A stretch of 29,032 bases of DNA from positions 1 to 29,032 of the forward strand of contig JACPHN010000144.1 of the NCBI GenBank assembly GCA_016188575.1. Reading direction: 5' to 3'. Position 1 is the first letter of the stretch. Each line of letters starts with the position of its first letter. This DNA comes from Candidatus Schekmanbacteria bacterium. GTDB lineage: Bacteria > CSSED10-310 > JACPHN01. The position numbers and the translations under genes were made by a program. The notes under the pieces were generated by a model, which saw only the letters and a list, made by a program, of their open reading frames with translations, was not told the origin of the DNA and did not search any database. Positions 1 through 6,400 of this stretch are shown here, piece after piece.

Positions 1-66
1 GATGCGAAAATGACATGAAAAGCGGCAGAGACCCTCCACCATAACGTCTGGCGACCCCTTACAGGA

Positions 67-417
67 GTGTCCCAGGAATGCGTTTGGCACCGACTGGACG
101 CAACCGAGAGGAAATCTCCCCCGGGCCGGTGGATTCAGGGTCGGGTTGGCATATGGCGTCCGGCGCTCGCGTGGTGTACAACCATACCAGCAGGCGGTTG
201 CGCCGGACGGTTACCTTTGCCGTCCACCATCGATGCGAGGCTGGAGAAGCGGAACGTGCACAGTCTGGCGCTGCGCGTGGAGCTGCGGGTTACGCGAGGC
301 GGCGAGCCGGTTGACCTCGGTCGGGTCGTGCGCGCGCAGTCCACGAACGGGAACACCCTCAAGGGCAGCATGCGGATTGATTCATCGGCGCGACGGTGCG
401 ACTGGCGGGCGCGATGA
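67..417 (+). CDS. Hypothetical protein upstream of the ABC-3C genes (doubtful)
   Basis: I do not recognise this 116-residue reading frame. It opens with a GTG preceded by a purine-rich AGGA, and its TGA overlaps the ATG of the next gene (ATGA at 414-417), as between the later genes of this cluster. The N-terminal half is low in recognisable protein character; the C-terminal half (about residues 55-105, with an alternating LALRVELRV stretch) looks more protein-like. Core ABC-3C systems do not need a fourth gene, so it may be an accessory gene, the tail of a degraded one, or a chance frame. Nothing else convincing is visible in bases 1-413. The stop/start overlap is the only real support. Confidence 0.25.
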   Translation: MSQECVWHRLDATERKSPPGRWIQGRVGIWRPALAWCTTIPAGGCAGRLPLPSTIDARLEKRNVHSLALRVELRVTRGGEPVDLGRVVRAQSTNGNTLKGSMRIDSSARRCDWRAR

Positions 418-647
418 GTAGCCCATTCGATGCCTCCGCATCCCTTCTCGGGTACCTCTTTCAGGTCCGGATCGGGCTCGCCGACGCTGTTCGGCGTTTG
501 CGGCGGTGCGAGACATTTACCGTGGGCATCGAAACGTTGGACGACGTCGTGTTCGAGACGGTTGGCAGCCCCGTCGAAATCCTGCAGACGAAGCATCATC
601 TGAACGCCAAGACAGGACTCGGTGACGCGAGTGCCGAGGCGGTGTAA
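414..647 (+). pseudogene. Truncated ABC-3C effector, N-terminal nuclease-like fragment
   Basis: A 77-residue product starting at ATG 414. It has the opening of effectors found in three-component ABC systems and of DUF4297/Cap4-like dsDNA nucleases: a GYLFQ motif near residue 13, then an acidic pair (E40, D43-D44), then EILQTKHH (Q58, K60, H61-H62), which fits the E...D...QxK core of a PD-(D/E)xK fold. Family members normally run on to several hundred residues, with an effector body and a C-terminal domain that docks with the ATPase. Here the frame stops at TAA 645-647, directly before the ATG of the middle component, so the body and docking domain are absent. I infer an internal deletion that fused the 5' end to the gene's end. 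It could instead be a stand-alone mini-effector. Family assignment fair, truncation strongly indicated. Confidence 0.6.
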
Positions 648-1148
648 ATGTTGCTTTCGCGATGGTCCGAACGCTCGCCTGAGGAAGCGGCGCTTCTCAA
701 TCCCGCGCTGCTGGCCGTCATCTTGGTCCGAGCAGTCGAGGGGTACCGAGCCGAGGTGGGACGAGGATTGCCGTTCGAGCTGACGTTTCTCGTGCCGCCT
801 GTGGTGTTGGTGAAGGCCACCCGCGAGCGCCTGCCCCGGCAAGCTCGCACGTCGCTTCCCGCCTGGCTGGAAGACAACCCCGATGTCAGGCTCCGATTCG
901 CGGAGACTGCAGTAGCAATGGCGCCGCTCGTCCGCGAGGCAATCGTCTTCGGCTGCTCCCACGGAGTGCTTGCTCTCGACGGCGCCCAAGTTTGTGCCGG
1001 CAAGCTCGACCGAAGTACGACAGGGTTACTGCGGTCGACCACCGATGAGGTCCGAGACGTTGTCAGCCGTTCATCGTTCGTTGGCAGGTGGTATGCGCTC
1101 GCTGGAGCAACGGAGACGGTGATGGCGCTATGGGGCGTGCGACCATGA
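648..1148 (+). CDS. Three-component ABC system middle component
   Basis: A 166-residue protein resembling the 'middle component' of ABC-3C systems. Seen in sequence: an N-terminal RWSERSPEEAALLNPALLA segment, then a hydrophobic block (FELTFLVPPVVL) followed by KATRERLPRQARTSLPAWL, then the REAIVFGCSHGVLAL segment typical of the family. Length is normal. The middle component is thought to link the DUF3732 ATPase to the effector; its biochemistry is not established. The ATG directly abuts the stop of the truncated effector, and its TGA (1146-1148) overlaps the ATG of the ATPase by 4 nt (ATGA), so the three are translationally coupled. No frame damage is visible. Confidence 0.8.
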   Translation: MLLSRWSERSPEEAALLNPALLAVILVRAVEGYRAEVGRGLPFELTFLVPPVVLVKATRERLPRQARTSLPAWLEDNPDVRLRFAETAVAMAPLVREAIVFGCSHGVLALDGAQVCAGKLDRSTTGLLRSTTDEVRDVVSRSSFVGRWYALAGATETVMALWGVRP

Positions 1149-3124
1149 GTTTTCAGATCCGCGACATTATCCTCTACGGCCCGGTCGAGGAGCCTCGCAT
1201 TCTCGGGCTCCGTCTCGGACAGCTCAACATCATCACTGGTGCTTCGAAGACGGGTAAGTCCGCCCTGATCTCGATTGTCGACTACTGCCTCGGGGCGAGC
1301 GAATGCACGGTCGCATATGGACCAATCCGCAGCACGGTTGAGTGGTACGCGCTCCGACTCGCGTTACCGAATCAGGAGATTTTCATCTCCCGCAAGGCTC
1401 CGGATGTCGGTAAGGAGTCCAGTACCGCGATGATCTTCCAGGTGGCCGCATCGGTTGATATTCCGCCGAAGTCAGCCCTGATGCCTACGACGAACGCGCC
1501 ATCGGTGGAGCAACTCCTTTCCCGGGCTGCGGGGATCGGCGACAACCTACACGAGCCGCCACCGGGGCAGACGCGGGATCCGGTTGCTGCGACGATCCGA
1601 CACGCTCTCTACTTCTGCTTGCTGCCCCAGGACGAGATCATCAGTCGGAAACTGCTGTTTTGCCGCCAGGGCGAGCCGCTCATCCCGCAGGCCGTCAAGG
1701 ACGTGCTCCCATACTTTCTGGGCGCAATCGAAGACGACTACATTATCCAGCAGGCTCGGCTGCGTGCCCTGCGTCAGGAGCATCAAAGGATTTCACGGCG
1801 TATTGCCGAAGAATCCGCTCTGCGCGGAGCAGGAGCGTCGCGTGCCGAGAGCCTGCTGTCCGAGGCCCGAGACCTCGGCATCGTGGACCTACCGGCCAGC
1901 GCGTCCACCGGCGAGCAATCAGTCGACCAACTTCGCCGTGTCCTCGACCGAGCGTTGGGCACCGCACCGGAGCTCGATGCCAGCAAGCACGCGGAGGAGT
2001 ACGAGCAGCTTCTCGATGAAAGGCGCGAGCGTACCGTGACGTTTCGCCGGATCGAGGCAGATCTGAAGGCCGCGACGGCGTTAATTCGGGAGCAGAAGGG
2101 CTTCACTAGCGAAGGTGGCGAGCAGGTCGGCCGGCTTAAAAGCATCGGGATGCTTCCGCCGGCTAACGGAGGTCATGTCTGCCCCGTATGCGCTTCGGAG
2201 CTGCCGGAGCTCACAAAGACTGATGAGATCCGGCAGACACTGCTTCGACTTCAGGCAAGGCTTGTTCGCGTTGACCAAGACAATCCGCACCTCGAGCGGC
2301 TGGTCCGCGATCTGGAGGAGCGGCTCCGAGCCGCACGTGCGAGCCTCGCGGAAAATCGGGCAGCGATCGATGCGTTGGAGAAGTCTGCGAACAAGGTTTC
2401 GGAGTGCCGTGACTTTGTCGCGCGTGCGGCCCACATTCGGGGACGGATCAGCCTGTACCTCGAGACGTTGCCCAAGGCTCCCGAGCGGGCAGACGATCTT
2501 GAGGTGACCGCTCGCGAGCTGGCAAGAAAGATCGCTGAGCTGGACGCGGTGCTCAGCGCCGATGCGGTCGCCGAGCGCATCGACTCACTCCTGCACCGCT
2601 TGTCGAGCCACGTAACCGTGACCGCTCGCGAGCTGGAATTGGAGCACTCGGACCATCCACTTCGCTTCAACCTCAAGAAGCTGACGATCGTTGCTGACAC
2701 GCCGACTGGCGCAGTCCCGATGGACCGCATGGGGAGCGGCGCTAACTGGATTGGCTACCACATCGCCGTGCATCTGGCGCTGCACCGCCTGTTCGTGGAG
2801 GCGAAGCGACCCGTTCCTCGATTCCTGTTCCTGGACCAACCGTCGCAAGTCTACTTTCCCGCCGACCGAGACACTGCGGGGCGCCTCGAAGTTGGTCGCG
2901 AGGGTCGTGTGGTCGACGAGGACCGTATTGCTGTACTCCTGATGTTCCAGATCGTCCGCGACTTTGCGTCGAGCCTCCATGGCGAGTTTCAGGTGGTGGT
3001 TACGGAGCACGCCGATCCAGTTCAGGACTGGTACCAAGACAGCGTGGTCGAACGGTGGCGCGATGGCAAAAAGCTCATACCCGCGGAGTGGGCCGAGATC
3101 GCCCGAAGGAGAGACGGTTTGTAA
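1145..3124 (+). CDS. DUF3732 ABC-type ATPase of an ABC-3C conflict system, with zinc hook
   Basis: A 659-residue Rad50/SMC-like ATPase, the signature gene of ABC-3C systems. Seen: Walker A GASKTGKS with K38; long charged coiled-coil stretches on both sides of a CPVC zinc-hook motif (C346, C349); an ABC signature-like GSGANWIGYH; a Walker B FLFLDQPSQ (D564) in which Gln565 stands where most ABC ATPases have the catalytic Glu; and an H-loop VVVTEH near the C-terminus. As I recall, the DQPSQ form is typical of the family, so it is not local damage. The start is ATG 1145, overlapping the previous stop; an upstream in-frame start (1088) lies inside the middle component and is unlikely. By analogy with SMC proteins it may sense DNA or nucleoprotein and control the effector; that is inference. 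The gene looks intact even though its effector does not. An attC-like site begins 47 nt downstream. Confidence 0.92.
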   Translation: MSFQIRDIILYGPVEEPRILGLRLGQLNIITGASKTGKSALISIVDYCLGASECTVAYGPIRSTVEWYALRLALPNQEIFISRKAPDVGKESSTAMIFQVAASVDIPPKSALMPTTNAPSVEQLLSRAAGIGDNLHEPPPGQTRDPVAATIRHALYFCLLPQDEIISRKLLFCRQGEPLIPQAVKDVLPYFLGAIEDDYIIQQARLRALRQEHQRISRRIAEESALRGAGASRAESLLSEARDLGIVDLPASASTGEQSVDQLRRVLDRALGTAPELDASKHAEEYEQLLDERRERTVTFRRIEADLKAATALIREQKGFTSEGGEQVGRLKSIGMLPPANGGHVCPVCASELPELTKTDEIRQTLLRLQARLVRVDQDNPHLERLVRDLEERLRAARASLAENRAAIDALEKSANKVSECRDFVARAAHIRGRISLYLETLPKAPERADDLEVTARELARKIAELDAVLSADAVAERIDSLLHRLSSHVTVTARELELEHSDHPLRFNLKKLTIVADTPTGAVPMDRMGSGANWIGYHIAVHLALHRLFVEAKRPVPRFLFLDQPSQVYFPADRDTAGRLEVGREGRVVDEDRIAVLLMFQIVRDFASSLHGEFQVVVTEHADPVQDWYQDSVVERWRDGKKLIPAEWAEIARRRDGL

Positions 3125-3171
3125 TAGTGGTGGAATCAGGCGGTCTCCCATCGCCATCGTCGTGGCGCCCG

Positions 3172-3235
3172 GTCCAACACGCCGCTGAACCGGACGGTCG
3201 CCTGCGGCGCCCGCCGCTCAGCGACAACGTTAGGA
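3172..3235 (+). other. attC-like integron recombination site 1
   Basis: A 64-bp stretch with integron attC architecture. It opens with GTCCAAC (3172-3178), a perfect match to the R'' consensus RYYYAAC, and closes with GTTAGGA (3229-3235), six of seven matches to the R' consensus GTTRRRY. Just inside lie the paired arms CGCTGA and TCAGCG, and the GC-rich middle can fold further. It sits directly downstream of the ABC-3C ATPase, where a cassette's own attC would be. No integrase gene is in the window. Pairing was judged by eye. Confidence 0.58.
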
Positions 3236-3401
3236 CCCGTAACGAAATAACTGTGTCAAGCACCGAGGCCGAGCGAGAAGGCCGCCGGCGAGGAGCGACG
3301 ACGAAGCGTATCAATGGAGCGATACGGTGAGGAGGAGAGACGAAGCCGGCGGCCTTCGCAGCCGGCCGAATGCAACACAGTTATTTCGTTACGCATCCTT
3401 A
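3230..3401. mobile_element. MITE-like foldback palindrome with 27-bp terminal inverted repeats
   Basis: A non-coding element of about 170 bp bounded by terminal inverted repeats at 3230-3256 and 3375-3401 (24 of 27 positions match; the inner 18, starting GTAACGAAATAACTG, are perfect). Nested inside are a perfect 12-bp inverted repeat (3277-3288 with 3346-3357) and a 6-bp hairpin (3307-3312 with 3321-3326), so most of one strand can fold back. The AT-rich repeat ends contrast with the GC-rich surroundings. No ORF inside is convincing, so it would need a transposase from elsewhere if it moves. Its left end starts at the crossover position of attC-like site 1. It may instead be the non-coding lead of a cassette. 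Confidence 0.55.
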
Positions 3402-3549
3402 GGTGGCTCAGACCATTCTGGAATACGCCGTGGCAGACAAGAGCCCATTGGGACAGTGGTCCGGAAGTGATGCGACACCCGCATGGCAGTTTTCAGTCCC
3501 TGCCTCTGACGGTGTGATGTGCGTGCATTCATTTGTGGAGGAGGTACTC

Positions 3550-3765
3550 ATGCAAGCATATCGCGTTGAAACTACACTCACGCAAGATGGCACGCTCACC
3601 TTACACAGTCTGCCATTCCGGGCGGGCGAGGCTGTGGAAGTGATCATCTTGGTGCCGCCTCCTGTGGCGTTGGGTCTCCCACAGTATCCATTGCGTGGCA
3701 TGCCACTACATTACCTTGATCCCACCGAACCGGTTGCCCAAGCAGACTGGGAAGCGGCACAGTGA
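3550..3765 (+). CDS. VapB-like antitoxin
   Basis: A 71-residue protein encoded directly before a PIN toxin. ATG 3550 is chosen because a strong Shine-Dalgarno (GGAGGAGG, 3537-3544) lies 5 nt upstream; longer in-frame starts lack one. The N-terminal half is strand-rich (YRVETTLTQDGTLTLHSLPF...VEVIIL), as in small AbrB/VapB-like antitoxins. The tail is Pro-rich and ends DWEAAQ, where such antitoxins usually bind their toxin. The TGA overlaps the toxin's GTG start (GTGA at 3762-3765), so translation is coupled. Antitoxins of this type neutralise the partner RNase and usually autorepress; no operator was identified. Family identity is inferred mainly from size and position. Confidence 0.75.
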   Translation: MQAYRVETTLTQDGTLTLHSLPFRAGEAVEVIILVPPPVALGLPQYPLRGMPLHYLDPTEPVAQADWEAAQ

Positions 3766-4154
3766 TTGTCTTGGACACCCATATTTGGGTGTGGTGGGCA
3801 CACGGCGATACGCACCTACCCGACCACTACCGGAGGTATCTGGAGGTACACGAGACGCAGGGTCTCGGGGTGAGCGCGATTTCCTGCTGGGAAGTGGCCA
3901 AGCTAGTGGAGTACAGTCGTCTCACACTGCCATGCCCCGTGGCTACGTGGTTGGAGCAGGCGCTAGTCTATCCCGGCATCCGCTGGCTCGAGCTCACGCC
4001 CCGGATCATTGTAGAATCAACCCAATTGCCCGGGACGTTTCATCGTGATCCAGCCGATCAACTGATTGTCGCAACCGCACGCGTGTACAACTGTCCGTTG
4101 GTGACAGTTGACACGAAGATCCTGGCGTATCCCCATGTGGAAACGCAGCCGTAA
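3762..4154 (+). CDS. VapC-type PIN-domain ribonuclease toxin
   Basis: A 130-residue single PIN domain of normal VapC length. Seen: the opening MIVLDTHIWVWW with metal-binding D5, E44 (SCWEV), D99 (DPADQLIVATA) and D117 (LVTVDTKI), the complete acidic quartet. The opening and DPADQ motif match the Sll0205-like branch of PIN toxins. Such proteins cleave RNA in a Mg2+-dependent way when their antitoxin is degraded. The GTG start at 3762 is set by overlap with the antitoxin stop and by the family N-terminus. It appears intact. The pair is followed within 5 nt by an attC-like site; toxin-antitoxin pairs are classic cassette cargo. Confidence 0.9.
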   Translation: MIVLDTHIWVWWAHGDTHLPDHYRRYLEVHETQGLGVSAISCWEVAKLVEYSRLTLPCPVATWLEQALVYPGIRWLELTPRIIVESTQLPGTFHRDPADQLIVATARVYNCPLVTVDTKILAYPHVETQP

Positions 4155-4158
4155 CACC

Positions 4159-4246
4159 ACCTGACAACGCACTGGAGCCGAGGCCCAATAGCCTCCGCTC
4201 CTACGTCGCTCCGGCTATCGGGCGCGGCTCACCGCGAGCGTTCTTC
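4159..4246 (+). other. attC-like integron recombination site 2
   Basis: An attC-like fold just after the VapC stop. ACCTGAC (4159-4165) matches R'' (RYYYAAC) at six of seven positions. AACGC (4166-4170) pairs with GCGTT (4238-4242). Inner arms GAGCCG...GCCC...ATAGCC (4175-4193) pair with GGCTAT...GGGC...GGCTC (4213-4230) with a one-base asymmetry, as in the extrahelical bases of real attC sites. The R' box (GTTCTTC) keeps only the invariant GTT and the terminal pyrimidine, as can happen when the following cassette supplies the rest. The R' mismatch lowers confidence. Confidence 0.55.
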
Positions 4247-4261
4247 CGACGCTGCGCGCCG

Positions 4262-4398
4262 GAAGAACGGGGCGCCGGGCAAGAGTCGGTTGTTCCGCCG
4301 CGCTGATTCGCGCGGCAGAACAACCGGGTGCAGCGGACAGCGCCCTGCCGTAGTAAGCTACCTCCGGGCGCTGCCGCTGACCCGGCGCCCCGTTAGAC
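4262..4398 (+). other. Large folded element ending in GTTAGAC, possible third attC
   Basis: A perfect 14-bp stem (arms at 4266-4279 and 4380-4393, GC-rich, AAC pairing with GTT) encloses two further hairpins: 4287-4325 (arms CGGTTGTTC and GAACAACCG plus an inner GC stem) and 4331-4379 (arms around CAGCGG and CCGCTG). The whole can form a three-way junction. It ends with GTTAGAC (4392-4398), a perfect R' box, but the 5' box (GAAGAAC) is a poor R''. A separate short hairpin (GTTCTTCCG with CGGAAGAAC, 4240-4268) precedes it. It may be a long attC, an attC enlarged by insertion, or an unrelated structured element. The Rhs fragment on the other strand ends inside it. Confidence 0.35.
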
Positions 4399-6400
4399 GG
4401 CGCGAGTAGAGCTCGTCACTGGTAAGGCGATGAAGGTCGAGGGGCGGTCGCGTTCGTGGATGGTCGGCGCGGCGGTTGCAACCGGATCGAGCGTGGCGCT
4501 GTGGGGGGTGCGCAGCGACTGGCAGGAAGGCCCGGTAACGCCGGAGCCTGTAACTCTGAAACTCACCGCCAAGGTCATCGGCTAGCCGCGCGGCACGCTC
4601 CTCGAGGTGCCGTCGCGTCTCAGCTTCCGGCTCCTCCAAAGCGCGATTGCGGGCATCGCCGGCACCCGCCTCGACCTGGAGGCGCTGCGGCCTTGCCTGC
4701 GCACGACCCCGCAGCTCCGCGGCGAGCTCGTCTGGACGGGCGATGACCGACGATCCCGACGACTTGCACGGCTTGCCGGGCCGCGTGCCTGGTTTGCGGC
4801 CCGGATCAAGGTCCGGGGCCTCTGCGCCCGACGGCCGCAAGAGCGTGCGGTTGGGATCGCACGGCGCGAAGTGCGCAACCGGCATGCGCCACAGCTCCTG
4901 ACCCACGGGATACAGCGCCGCGAGGCGGTGCCGCTCCTCGTCGCTGATTCCCAGCATCGCCAGCGCCGCCGCATCCGCCGCCGAACCGCCGCCGTCGACG
5001 TCGAGCTCGGCGAGGTCCGCGAGCACGCCGAGGATCTTGAGGGTCCGCCCGTTCTCCTCCGGCACCCACACGCCCCGGGTGCGATCGTAGAAGCCGATTG
5101 GCACGCTCTCGCCGACCGGGTAGCCGAGAAAGGTCTCGACGTAGCCGATCACAGTCTGGTCGAAGGTGACGCTTTCCGCCGCCACGGCCTCGGCCTCGCC
5201 CAGCGCCAGCTCGACGGCGTAGGTGTAGGCGACCGTAGGCCCGAGCGGCGCCGGCATCGCCTCGGGGCCGCGGTCCCCGACCGTGTATTCCGTGACGCGC
5301 ACGTGAAATGAGGTCAGATCCTGCGTACCGCCCCCAGGAAGGTGGATCGTGGCGACGGTGCCCGCGGCGATGAAGACCGTGGCCTGCCGCGAGCCGTCGG
5401 CGTCGGTCCCGACCTCGCCGCGCACCACCGCGATCGGATCGGGACCGGCGGTGTCCACGGCCGTGGATACGGCGGCGAGCGGCGTGAGGACGACGTCGTC
5501 AAGCCGGATGAAGGAGTGCCTGGGCACGTCCGCCGGACGGTGCACATCGAGATAACCCGCCTTCGTGTAAGCGACGACGAGCCGCCCGCCGCCATTGACC
5601 GCGAAATCGAAGCCACCATCCGCGCGCGAGGCCGTTTCGCCGAGTTCCGCGTGGTCGAGAATGCCGACCGTGACCGCCGCGACGGCCGCGCCGGAGGGGT
5701 CGAGGACGCGCCCGCGCAGCACCGCGAGGCGCTCGTCGACCATGACGCCCGCGGCGACCCCGGTCTGCGGAGGGTTCGCGCCATAGTAGAGGAAATCCAC
5801 CTGCTCCGCGAAGGTGAGGTCCGGGTCGGCATCGTCTCCGGGCGCGCCCGCGGGGGCCGCCAGGACATTCTCCGGCCCCGAGGTGGGGATCGGCGTGAGC
5901 GTCGGCGTCGGGGTAAGAGTCGGTGTGGCGGTCCAACTAATCGTCGGCGTCAGCGTCGCGGTCGCGGTGGATGATGGCGGCGGCGTGGCGCTTGCCGTGG
6001 CCGTTTGCGTGGAGGTCTCCGGCTCTCCCGGAGGCGGTGTCCCGGTCGCCGTCCCGCTCGCGGTTGCCATCGCCACCAAACCCGGCGTGCTCATCGGAGA
6101 AGGCGATGCCGTCGCCACCAGCGCCGCAGTCGGCGTTGCGGTTGACACCGCTGCCGGCGTGCCGGTCAGGGTCGGCGTGCTCGTAGCCAGTGTCGTGGGC
6201 GTCGCGGTAGGCGTCCCCGGCGACGGCGTTGCGGTCGCGGTCGCCTGCGGCACGCCGGGCGTGGGGCTCAGGATTGCGGCTGCCGTCGCTGTTGCCGTGA
6301 GGGCCGGAGCCCCCGCCGGCGTTTCTGTTGCCACCGCCGTCGCCGTGTCGATCGCCGCTGCCGTCGCGGTCGCGCTCGCTCCCACCGCCGCCAGCGTCAC
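4358..6400 (-). pseudogene. Rhs/YD-family protein, N-terminal fragment truncated at both ends
   Basis: The frame starts at GTG 6400. Residues 1 to about 185 are an Ala/Thr/Pro/Ser linker of ATATPTPT type. Next comes a region I know from N-termini of large Rhs/YD-repeat proteins: FLYYGANPPQTGV, then LRGRVLDPSGAAVAAVTV (a carboxypeptidase-regulatory-like fold), then VRVTEYTVG, PTVAYTYAVELALGEA, FYDRTRGVWVPEENGR and LWRMPVAHFAPCDPN. Homology runs to GSSVI, coded at about 4742, where the Rhs repeat region should begin. Instead an unrelated Arg-rich tail runs 127 codons to a stop at 4358 inside the attC-like structure. There is no signal peptide: an in-frame stop lies just upstream of the GTG and no earlier start exists. 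So both the secretion signal and the whole repeat/toxin part are missing. Rhs proteins deliver C-terminal toxins; this remnant cannot. Confidence 0.72.
4430..4585 (+). CDS. Small hypothetical ORF after the last attC-like site
   Basis: A 51-residue frame starting at ATG 4430, 32 nt after the GTTAGAC box, in the position of a cassette gene. It has a short hydrophobic stretch (WMVGAAVATGSSVALWGV, residues 10-27) followed by a strand-like tail (PVTLKLTAKVIG), and GC-biased third positions. The upstream GGTAAGG is too close to the ATG to be a good ribosome site. It overlaps, antisense, the non-homologous tail of the Rhs fragment. It resembles nothing I recognise and may be chance. Confidence 0.22.
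   Translation: MKVEGRSRSWMVGAAVATGSSVALWGVRSDWQEGPVTPEPVTLKLTAKVIG

Follow-up and report, generated by a model that had tools for sequence, protein, structure and literature searches.

A structured gene-less cassette that closes a chromosomal integron array in a genome with unusually large defence cassettes

Background

Three hairpin-forming sites follow the ABC-3C genes and a toxin-antitoxin pair in the stretch of DNA analysed here (the window, 29,032 nucleotides), which is the entire contig C262 of a 9.2-Mb genome assembled into 275 contigs. An earlier note, made from the letters of the window, had read these sites (3172-3235, 4159-4246 and 4262-4398) as attC-like and as parts of a possible integrase-less cassette cluster (CALIN). 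The locus raises the question of whether these are real attC sites and, if they are, what kind of array and what kind of cassettes they delimit. The unexpected part of the answer is the third site, which belongs to a gene-less cassette with a folded structure, of a class met with in several lineages; the defence cassettes of the genome are, in addition, unusually large.

Results and discussion

The attC sites of the window

We scored the window with two covariance models, R1, trained on 13 attC sites of the same genome with the window sites excluded, and R2, trained purely on attC sites from other phyla. When R1 was run over the 29 kb without filters, attC 1 to attC 3 (Table 1) were the three top matches and the runner-up reached 11.1 bits; with R2 the same sites were again the top three, with a runner-up at 11.9 bits. 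Because the training set of R1 contains one copy of the site-3 type, the R1 score of site 3 is near-trivial, while sites 1 and 2 are independent of the training. In many other phyla, R1 also picks out series of spaced sites, all on one strand, downstream of the integron integrase, indicating that it recognises attC sites generally. The bottom-strand folds, which the earlier note had proposed as a check, were better than those of shuffled sequences at all three sites (z = -4.6, -2.8 and -10.1 for sites 1, 2 and 3, respectively). The three attC-like sites are confirmed by these results. They share a single orientation, which is also that of the genes, as claimed, and ORF stops adjoin them: the PIN stop codon ends at the base before attC 2, and the LmuB stop lies 43 nt upstream of attC 1.

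Table 1. Features of the window (positions on the forward strand)
Feature	Position	Strand	Remarks
Dispersed-repeat end	1..139	+	about 25 genome copies; contig breaks inside
lmuA remnant (Cap4-type nuclease effector of Lamassu)	414..647	+	PADLOC LmuA profile, 4-71 of 373
lmuC (ABC-3C middle component MC3)	648..1148	+	PF20131, E 1.8e-37; PADLOC LmuC
lmuB (ABC-3C ATPase, DUF3732 C-terminus)	1145..3124	+	PF12532; PADLOC LmuB, E 2e-127
attC 1	3168..3231	+	closes Lamassu cassette; crossover after G3229; R1 37.3, R2 39.4 bits
Palindromic MITE-like element	3232..3400	+	ends AGGACCCGTAACGAAATAACTGTGT; fold z -8.5; about 22 near-complete genome copies
VapB-like antitoxin candidate, 71 aa	3550..3765	+	overlaps PIN gene; weak NCBIfam antitoxin match only
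VapC-like PIN-domain toxin	3762..4154	+	PF01850, E 8e-14
attC 2	4155..4242	+	closes VapBC cassette; crossover after G4240; R1 30.6, R2 30.4 bits
Cassette B, gene-less, 152 bp	4241..4392	+	attC plus inverted copy of its own arms
Hairpin 1 of B	4240..4268	+	GTTCTTCCGACGC-loop-GCG(T/C)CGGAAGAAC; stem opens with crossover GTT; 13/13 positions paired in four sequence families
Outer-stem 5' arm of B	4269..4279	+	inverted copy of L'R' arm; pairs with 4381-4391
Hairpin 2 of B	4285..4328	+	5' arm is inverted R''L'' copy; R'' and L'' of attC 3 lie in the 3' arm
attC 3	4311..4394	+	attC of cassette B; crossover after G4392; R1 55.1, R2 49.0 bits

The sites thus lie near the positions first given for them, but the extent of the third has to be corrected. 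It had been described as a 137-bp attC (4262-4398); the attC itself is the shorter segment in Table 1 and the remainder makes up the body of a cassette without genes. The element boundaries of the other two sites also shift in part: the R prime assigned to site 1, GTTAGGAC, reaches into the palindromic repeat inserted at about 3232-3400, and that assigned to site 2 (GTTCTTC) consists of the opening bases of the following cassette. In an Rfam search no family reached its gathering score, and the weak matches within 3000-4500 were at chance level.

Two integron integrases of the genome are intact, scoring 476.7 and 424.2 bits against TIGR02249 (cut-off 265); on further contigs there are several integrase fragments. 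The best identities of the IntI matches are 66-72% and are spread over several phyla. At least 59 attC sites were found genome-wide on about 26 contigs (R1, E up to 1e-3), and an ORF of at least 100 aa ends between -60 and +25 nt from the attC start at 62% of 39 attC sites, from which the sites of the type of attC 3 were excluded, versus 13% of random positions. Co-orientation, adjoining stop codons and this genome-wide excess bear out the cassette cluster at 3168-4394. Taken together with the integrases and the attC sites elsewhere in the genome, the attC sites of the window identify this segment as the distal end of a chromosomal integron cassette array, which stops at attC 3 (4392); the next large ORF beyond is on the opposite strand. 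The left border of the array is not visible because the contig breaks within a dispersed repeat (Table 1); of the repeat copies examined with their flanks, three likewise lie near contig ends.

As to the integrase platforms themselves, the attI sites of the genome fall into three or more families, and several platforms, some intact and some broken, are present (L039, L041, L043, L044, L052, L053 and L120). Some of the intI genes are codirectional with the array, and two platforms show the classical divergent arrangement with a promoter-like sequence, TTGAC(A/G)-N17-TACG. Both intact integrases (L039 2583-3965 and L041 9370-10773) have an N-terminal extension of roughly 110-140 residues.

A chance resemblance to attC, with the hairpins being no more than GC-rich terminators or repeats of the REP type, is hardly credible. 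The region is indeed GC-rich and an unrelated palindromic repeat lies within it, but in the covariance search, also proposed by the earlier note, the two models gave 30-55 bits at all three sites, compared with 11-12 for the strongest chance match, ORF stops adjoin the sites and the genome encodes integrases; this explanation was dropped on the model scores and the ORF-attC spacing. We regard as evenly balanced, on the other hand, whether the cluster is a true CALIN or the outer end of an integron that has its intI across the break in the contig. The 29-kb contig contains no intI, and many pairs of an attC and a cassette of the kind at site 3 are isolated elsewhere in the genome on long contigs without intI, which favours a CALIN; against it, the contig opens inside a dispersed repeat.

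The first two cassettes

The Lamassu/ABC-3C operon of the window has the LmuB ATPase, whose reading frame is open from 1088, and the LmuC middle component. lmuA is cut to its first approximately 75 residues, with lmuC beginning right after its stop codon, and the stump aligns to a 402-aa LmuA over residues 2-80 only; neither the PADLOC profile nor this 402-aa relative disclosed a complete LmuA effector in the operon. Since LmuA is a stump, the system is probably inactive as it stands or may work with another effector. The earlier note had considered an ABC-3C module ending in attC to be unusual. attC 1 does close the lmuB side, and the module is likely to be a cassette, though one with no visible left border.

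The second cassette carries a VapBC-like pair, whose 71-aa antitoxin candidate could not be assigned to a family with confidence. The palindromic repeat is inserted right at the beginning of this cassette. We considered the repeat as a part of attC 1 or as a cassette in its own right and set it aside, since its copies elsewhere in the genome are not at or near attC; it is outside the integron machinery.

Cassette B: copies and insertion sites

A search of the genome with 3100-4450 retrieved two repeat families, the palindromic repeat (3232-3400) and the segment 4241-4392, which we call B. Eighteen full copies of B with identical ends are present in the contigs examined, and several further copies are truncated or joined to other sequence. 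Among the 24 copies with an intact 5' end, 19 stand directly behind an attC, four at attI-like sites and one at a site assigned to neither kind, and 23 of the 24 have G at position -1; at the 3' end, full copies show CCCCG|TTNNN in nearly all cases. B thus occupies the G|TT crossover in a wide range of attC sites as well as in attI sites, and its orientation is constant. Upstream of one copy, on C43 (L046:8816-), neither an attC nor an attI is recognisable. In C43, gene cassettes alternate with B.

Pairs of attI sites with and without B were available for comparison. The attI of C177 (with B) and that of C88 (without B) match at 96.7% identity across the 300 bp before the crossover and end in ...TTACAAG| and ...TTGCAAG|, respectively. 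Likewise, the attI of C197 (with B) and of C140 (without B) share 93.7% identity up to the crossover, and C197, C140 and C159 (the latter also without B at this site) are alike up to ...ATTGTTG|. Such precise placement at the crossover, together with the empty sites, is characteristic of insertion by IntI, and a transposon is unlikely to account for it. B has the features of a gene-less integron cassette: it is inserted at G|TT of attI and attC, has matching empty sites, carries its own attC at the 3' end and contains no ORF.

Some gene cassettes have only the 5' end of B or only its attC (L121 7233 and L126 7168), and one (L043 16230-18923) has both ends of B with genes between them, hinting that B-type attC sites may become joined to genes. 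By sequence, relatives of B were found neither in plasmids nor among 59 genomes, including the seven others of its phylum, and its exact 5' hairpin had no match in GTDB r220 contigs or IMG/VR; relatives emerged by architecture alone.

Anatomy and predicted fold of B

A canonical attC fills the 3' half of B, and the 5' half consists of the inverted arms listed in Table 1. As a single strand, the B consensus folds at -78 kcal/mol (z = -12). Closing the consensus into a circle would place the crossover within a single perfect hairpin of 24 bp and would let the opening bases of B, GTTCTTC, pair at 6/7 positions with its own R'' (GCAGAAC). R1 gave a weak attC-like match on the opposite strand within B (4302-4266), which is expected of an inverted copy. 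A scan covering sigma-70-like promoters and U-tract terminators detected neither in B. Covariation within 23 near-identical copies did not exceed that in shuffles, the copies being too alike for it to be shown within the genome. The copy on C159 (L053 10478-10450) has a two-sided compensatory change in hairpin 1, from TTCTTCC/GGAAGAA to CTCCTCC/GGAGGAA. At the level of sequence, the placement of B, its single orientation, its own attC and its conserved predicted fold are demonstrated.

The same folded design in other bacteria

All attC matches in integrase loci of other bacteria were scored for inverted arms like those of B. This screen singled out three loci, from a Nitrospira sp. MAG (L137), a member of Syntrophaceae (L139) and MAG JPNA_maxbin.176 (L136). 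The elements in each have hairpin 1, the outer stem, hairpin 2 and an attC, and in each locus one element stands directly at attI. In L137, two further elements, one of them a short form, stand behind gene cassettes, and gene cassettes alternate with these elements in the array. Genome-wide, the Nitrospira genome has four copies and the Syntrophaceae genome one full and one short copy.

Expressed as a rule of architecture, [GTT S loop S' AAC][X...X'][GTT], the design recovered the elements of all three loci and an additional one behind an attC in L257, from the phylum of L137; two matches were likely false (L206, and L170 at relaxed settings). In a control of 708 kb of reversed sequence, there was no match at strict settings and one at relaxed settings. 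Identity between families is 56-67%, versus 47-52% for shuffled sequence. In the three helices of four families, 159 of 167 cells are standard pairs, and 22 of 43 positions show compensatory differences, in which both sides have changed and pairing is kept; these counts lean towards structure and are supportive rather than proof, because the cross-family alignment was built by structure and one bulged base of L136 was omitted.

On balance, we favour, with some reserve, the view that these elements form a class of minimal cassettes defined by structure, consisting of an attC and inverted copies of its own arms. Such cassettes would spread in trans via attI and attC and would be interleaved with very large multi-gene defence cassettes; four or more bacterial lineages would have evolved or retained them, with sequences that are mostly dissimilar.

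A proposed mechanism and its alternatives

We put at about 85% the probability that 414-4394 is a distal array of Lamassu, VapBC-like and B cassettes, in which B would be a minimal, probably self-serving cassette moved by IntI. IntI links cassettes through a cut 3' of the G in the G|TT of attI or attC. The first cassette would be the Lamassu (ABC-3C) operon with its broken effector, the second the VapBC-like pair, which the palindromic repeat would have entered later, and the third B, which has no gene and in which the R and L arms of the attC recur, inverted, ahead of the attC itself. We infer that an integrase of the genome excises B as a circle through the bottom-strand attC and that the circle is re-inserted by IntI in trans. 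The 24-bp hairpin in the circular form should favour extrusion and single-strand folding, which may explain the abundance of B. B would then fill free attI and attC sites between large defence cassettes. The alternation of gene cassettes and B would result if B circles were plentiful and inserted at attI in the intervals between captures of gene cassettes, or if B were kept as an insulator; a side role as an RNA insulator or stabiliser is conceivable.

Two other explanations of B were weighed. Insertion sequences of the IS1111 type that target attC, and group IIC-attC introns, insert at a fixed place in attC; they encode a transposase or reverse transcriptase and are not known to occur at attI or to have an attC of their own. 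B might, by analogy to these, be a non-autonomous transposon (a MITE or an IS1111-type element) targeting attC, not an integron cassette, and its strong inverted repeats, its many near-identical copies without a gene and its constant position and orientation in attC would suit such an element. We consider this improbable, since B also occurs at attI sites, which have little in common with attC besides the G|TT crossover, carries a canonical 3' attC of its own (55 bits) and, as a circle, pairs its opening bases with its own R''; moreover, neither a target duplication nor a longer, transposase-bearing version was seen. The other explanation, which we hold to be possible but doubtful, is that B is kept between cassettes as an insulator, terminator or RNA stabiliser acting at the RNA or DNA level and is not a mobile parasite. 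The alternation of B with gene cassettes in C43 and in the Nitrospira array agrees with this, as do the compensatory changes in three helices between families, and large operon cassettes may carry their own promoters. Against a maintained function are the lack of a sigma-70-like promoter and of a U-tract terminator in B, the many arrays and attI sites of the genome that do without B, and the persistence of short and truncated forms. The reading as an IntI-moved, probably self-serving cassette is preferred.

Large defence cassettes in the genome

Cassettes of this genome reach 4-9 kb and hold multi-gene defence systems. C197 has a complete ABC-3C/Lamassu system, consisting of a Cap4 nuclease (386 aa), a middle component and an ATPase (634 aa), in 4.1 kb bounded by a B cassette and an attC with no attC-like site between; its ATPase and that of the window are alignable only in short stretches such as the P-loop. 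In C102, a segment of about 9.4 kb bounded by B and an attC encodes an HsdR-like protein (1203 aa), a helicase (1232 aa) and an HsdS-like protein (448 aa), with no internal attC-like site above 11.4 bits. On C56, the genes between attC sites include those for an Avs2-like protein of 1393 aa and a radical SAM protein resembling viperin. Defence-rich cassettes were noted at L051 4884-14275, L048 10624-16820, L046 and L119 7856-10705, their contents being HsdR/HsdS/helicase, Avs2-like and viperin-like radical SAM proteins and restriction and methylase fragments.

A 2025 review (PMC12409362) described integron defence systems as size-reduced, with systems of more than two genes notably absent. The genome studied here resembles the Vibrio integrons treated there in keeping anti-phage genes as cassettes, but what lies between its attC sites includes a three-gene Lamassu system of 4.1 kb and, at 9.4 kb, a type I-like set of R, S and helicase genes. 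The cassettes of C197, C102 and C56 do not fit the picture of compact systems only, and with three-gene and 9-kb defence cassettes the upper size of cassettes becomes testable.

Comparison with known systems

The window operon agrees with known Lamassu/ABC-3C systems (LmuABC, DUF3732) in its lmuA-lmuC-lmuB order and in its MC3 and DUF3732 families, and differs from them in ending in an attC and in having lmuA reduced as described above. As in CALINs and sedentary chromosomal integrons, the cassettes are co-oriented and bounded by attC, and no integrase stands next to them on the contig, which opens inside a repeat; unlike those, this genome has several integrase platforms, intact and broken, and unusually large cassettes. 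B shares a fixed place in attC with IS1111 elements and group IIC-attC introns, but is gene-less, occurs also at attI and has its own attC.

Gene-less cassettes are usually regarded as oddities or promoters. The recurring architecture, the compensatory changes, the many copies and the empty sites make B a testable case of a cassette under selection for the way its own DNA folds and moves. We found no description of such a cassette class in the open-access literature searched, most subscription papers being outside it. The closest comparison is with the gene-less cassettes of Vibrionaceae and oral Treponema (PMC11014356, PMC6557892), which, like B, have an attC, no ORF and a place in a chromosomal array. 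Most gene-less cassettes of Vibrio show promoter activity (PMC11014356), and those of Vibrionaceae and Treponema are mostly promoter cassettes, whereas B has no recognisable promoter. Unlike them, B is present in 18 full copies, combines an attC with its own inverted copy and represents a structural class found in several lineages.
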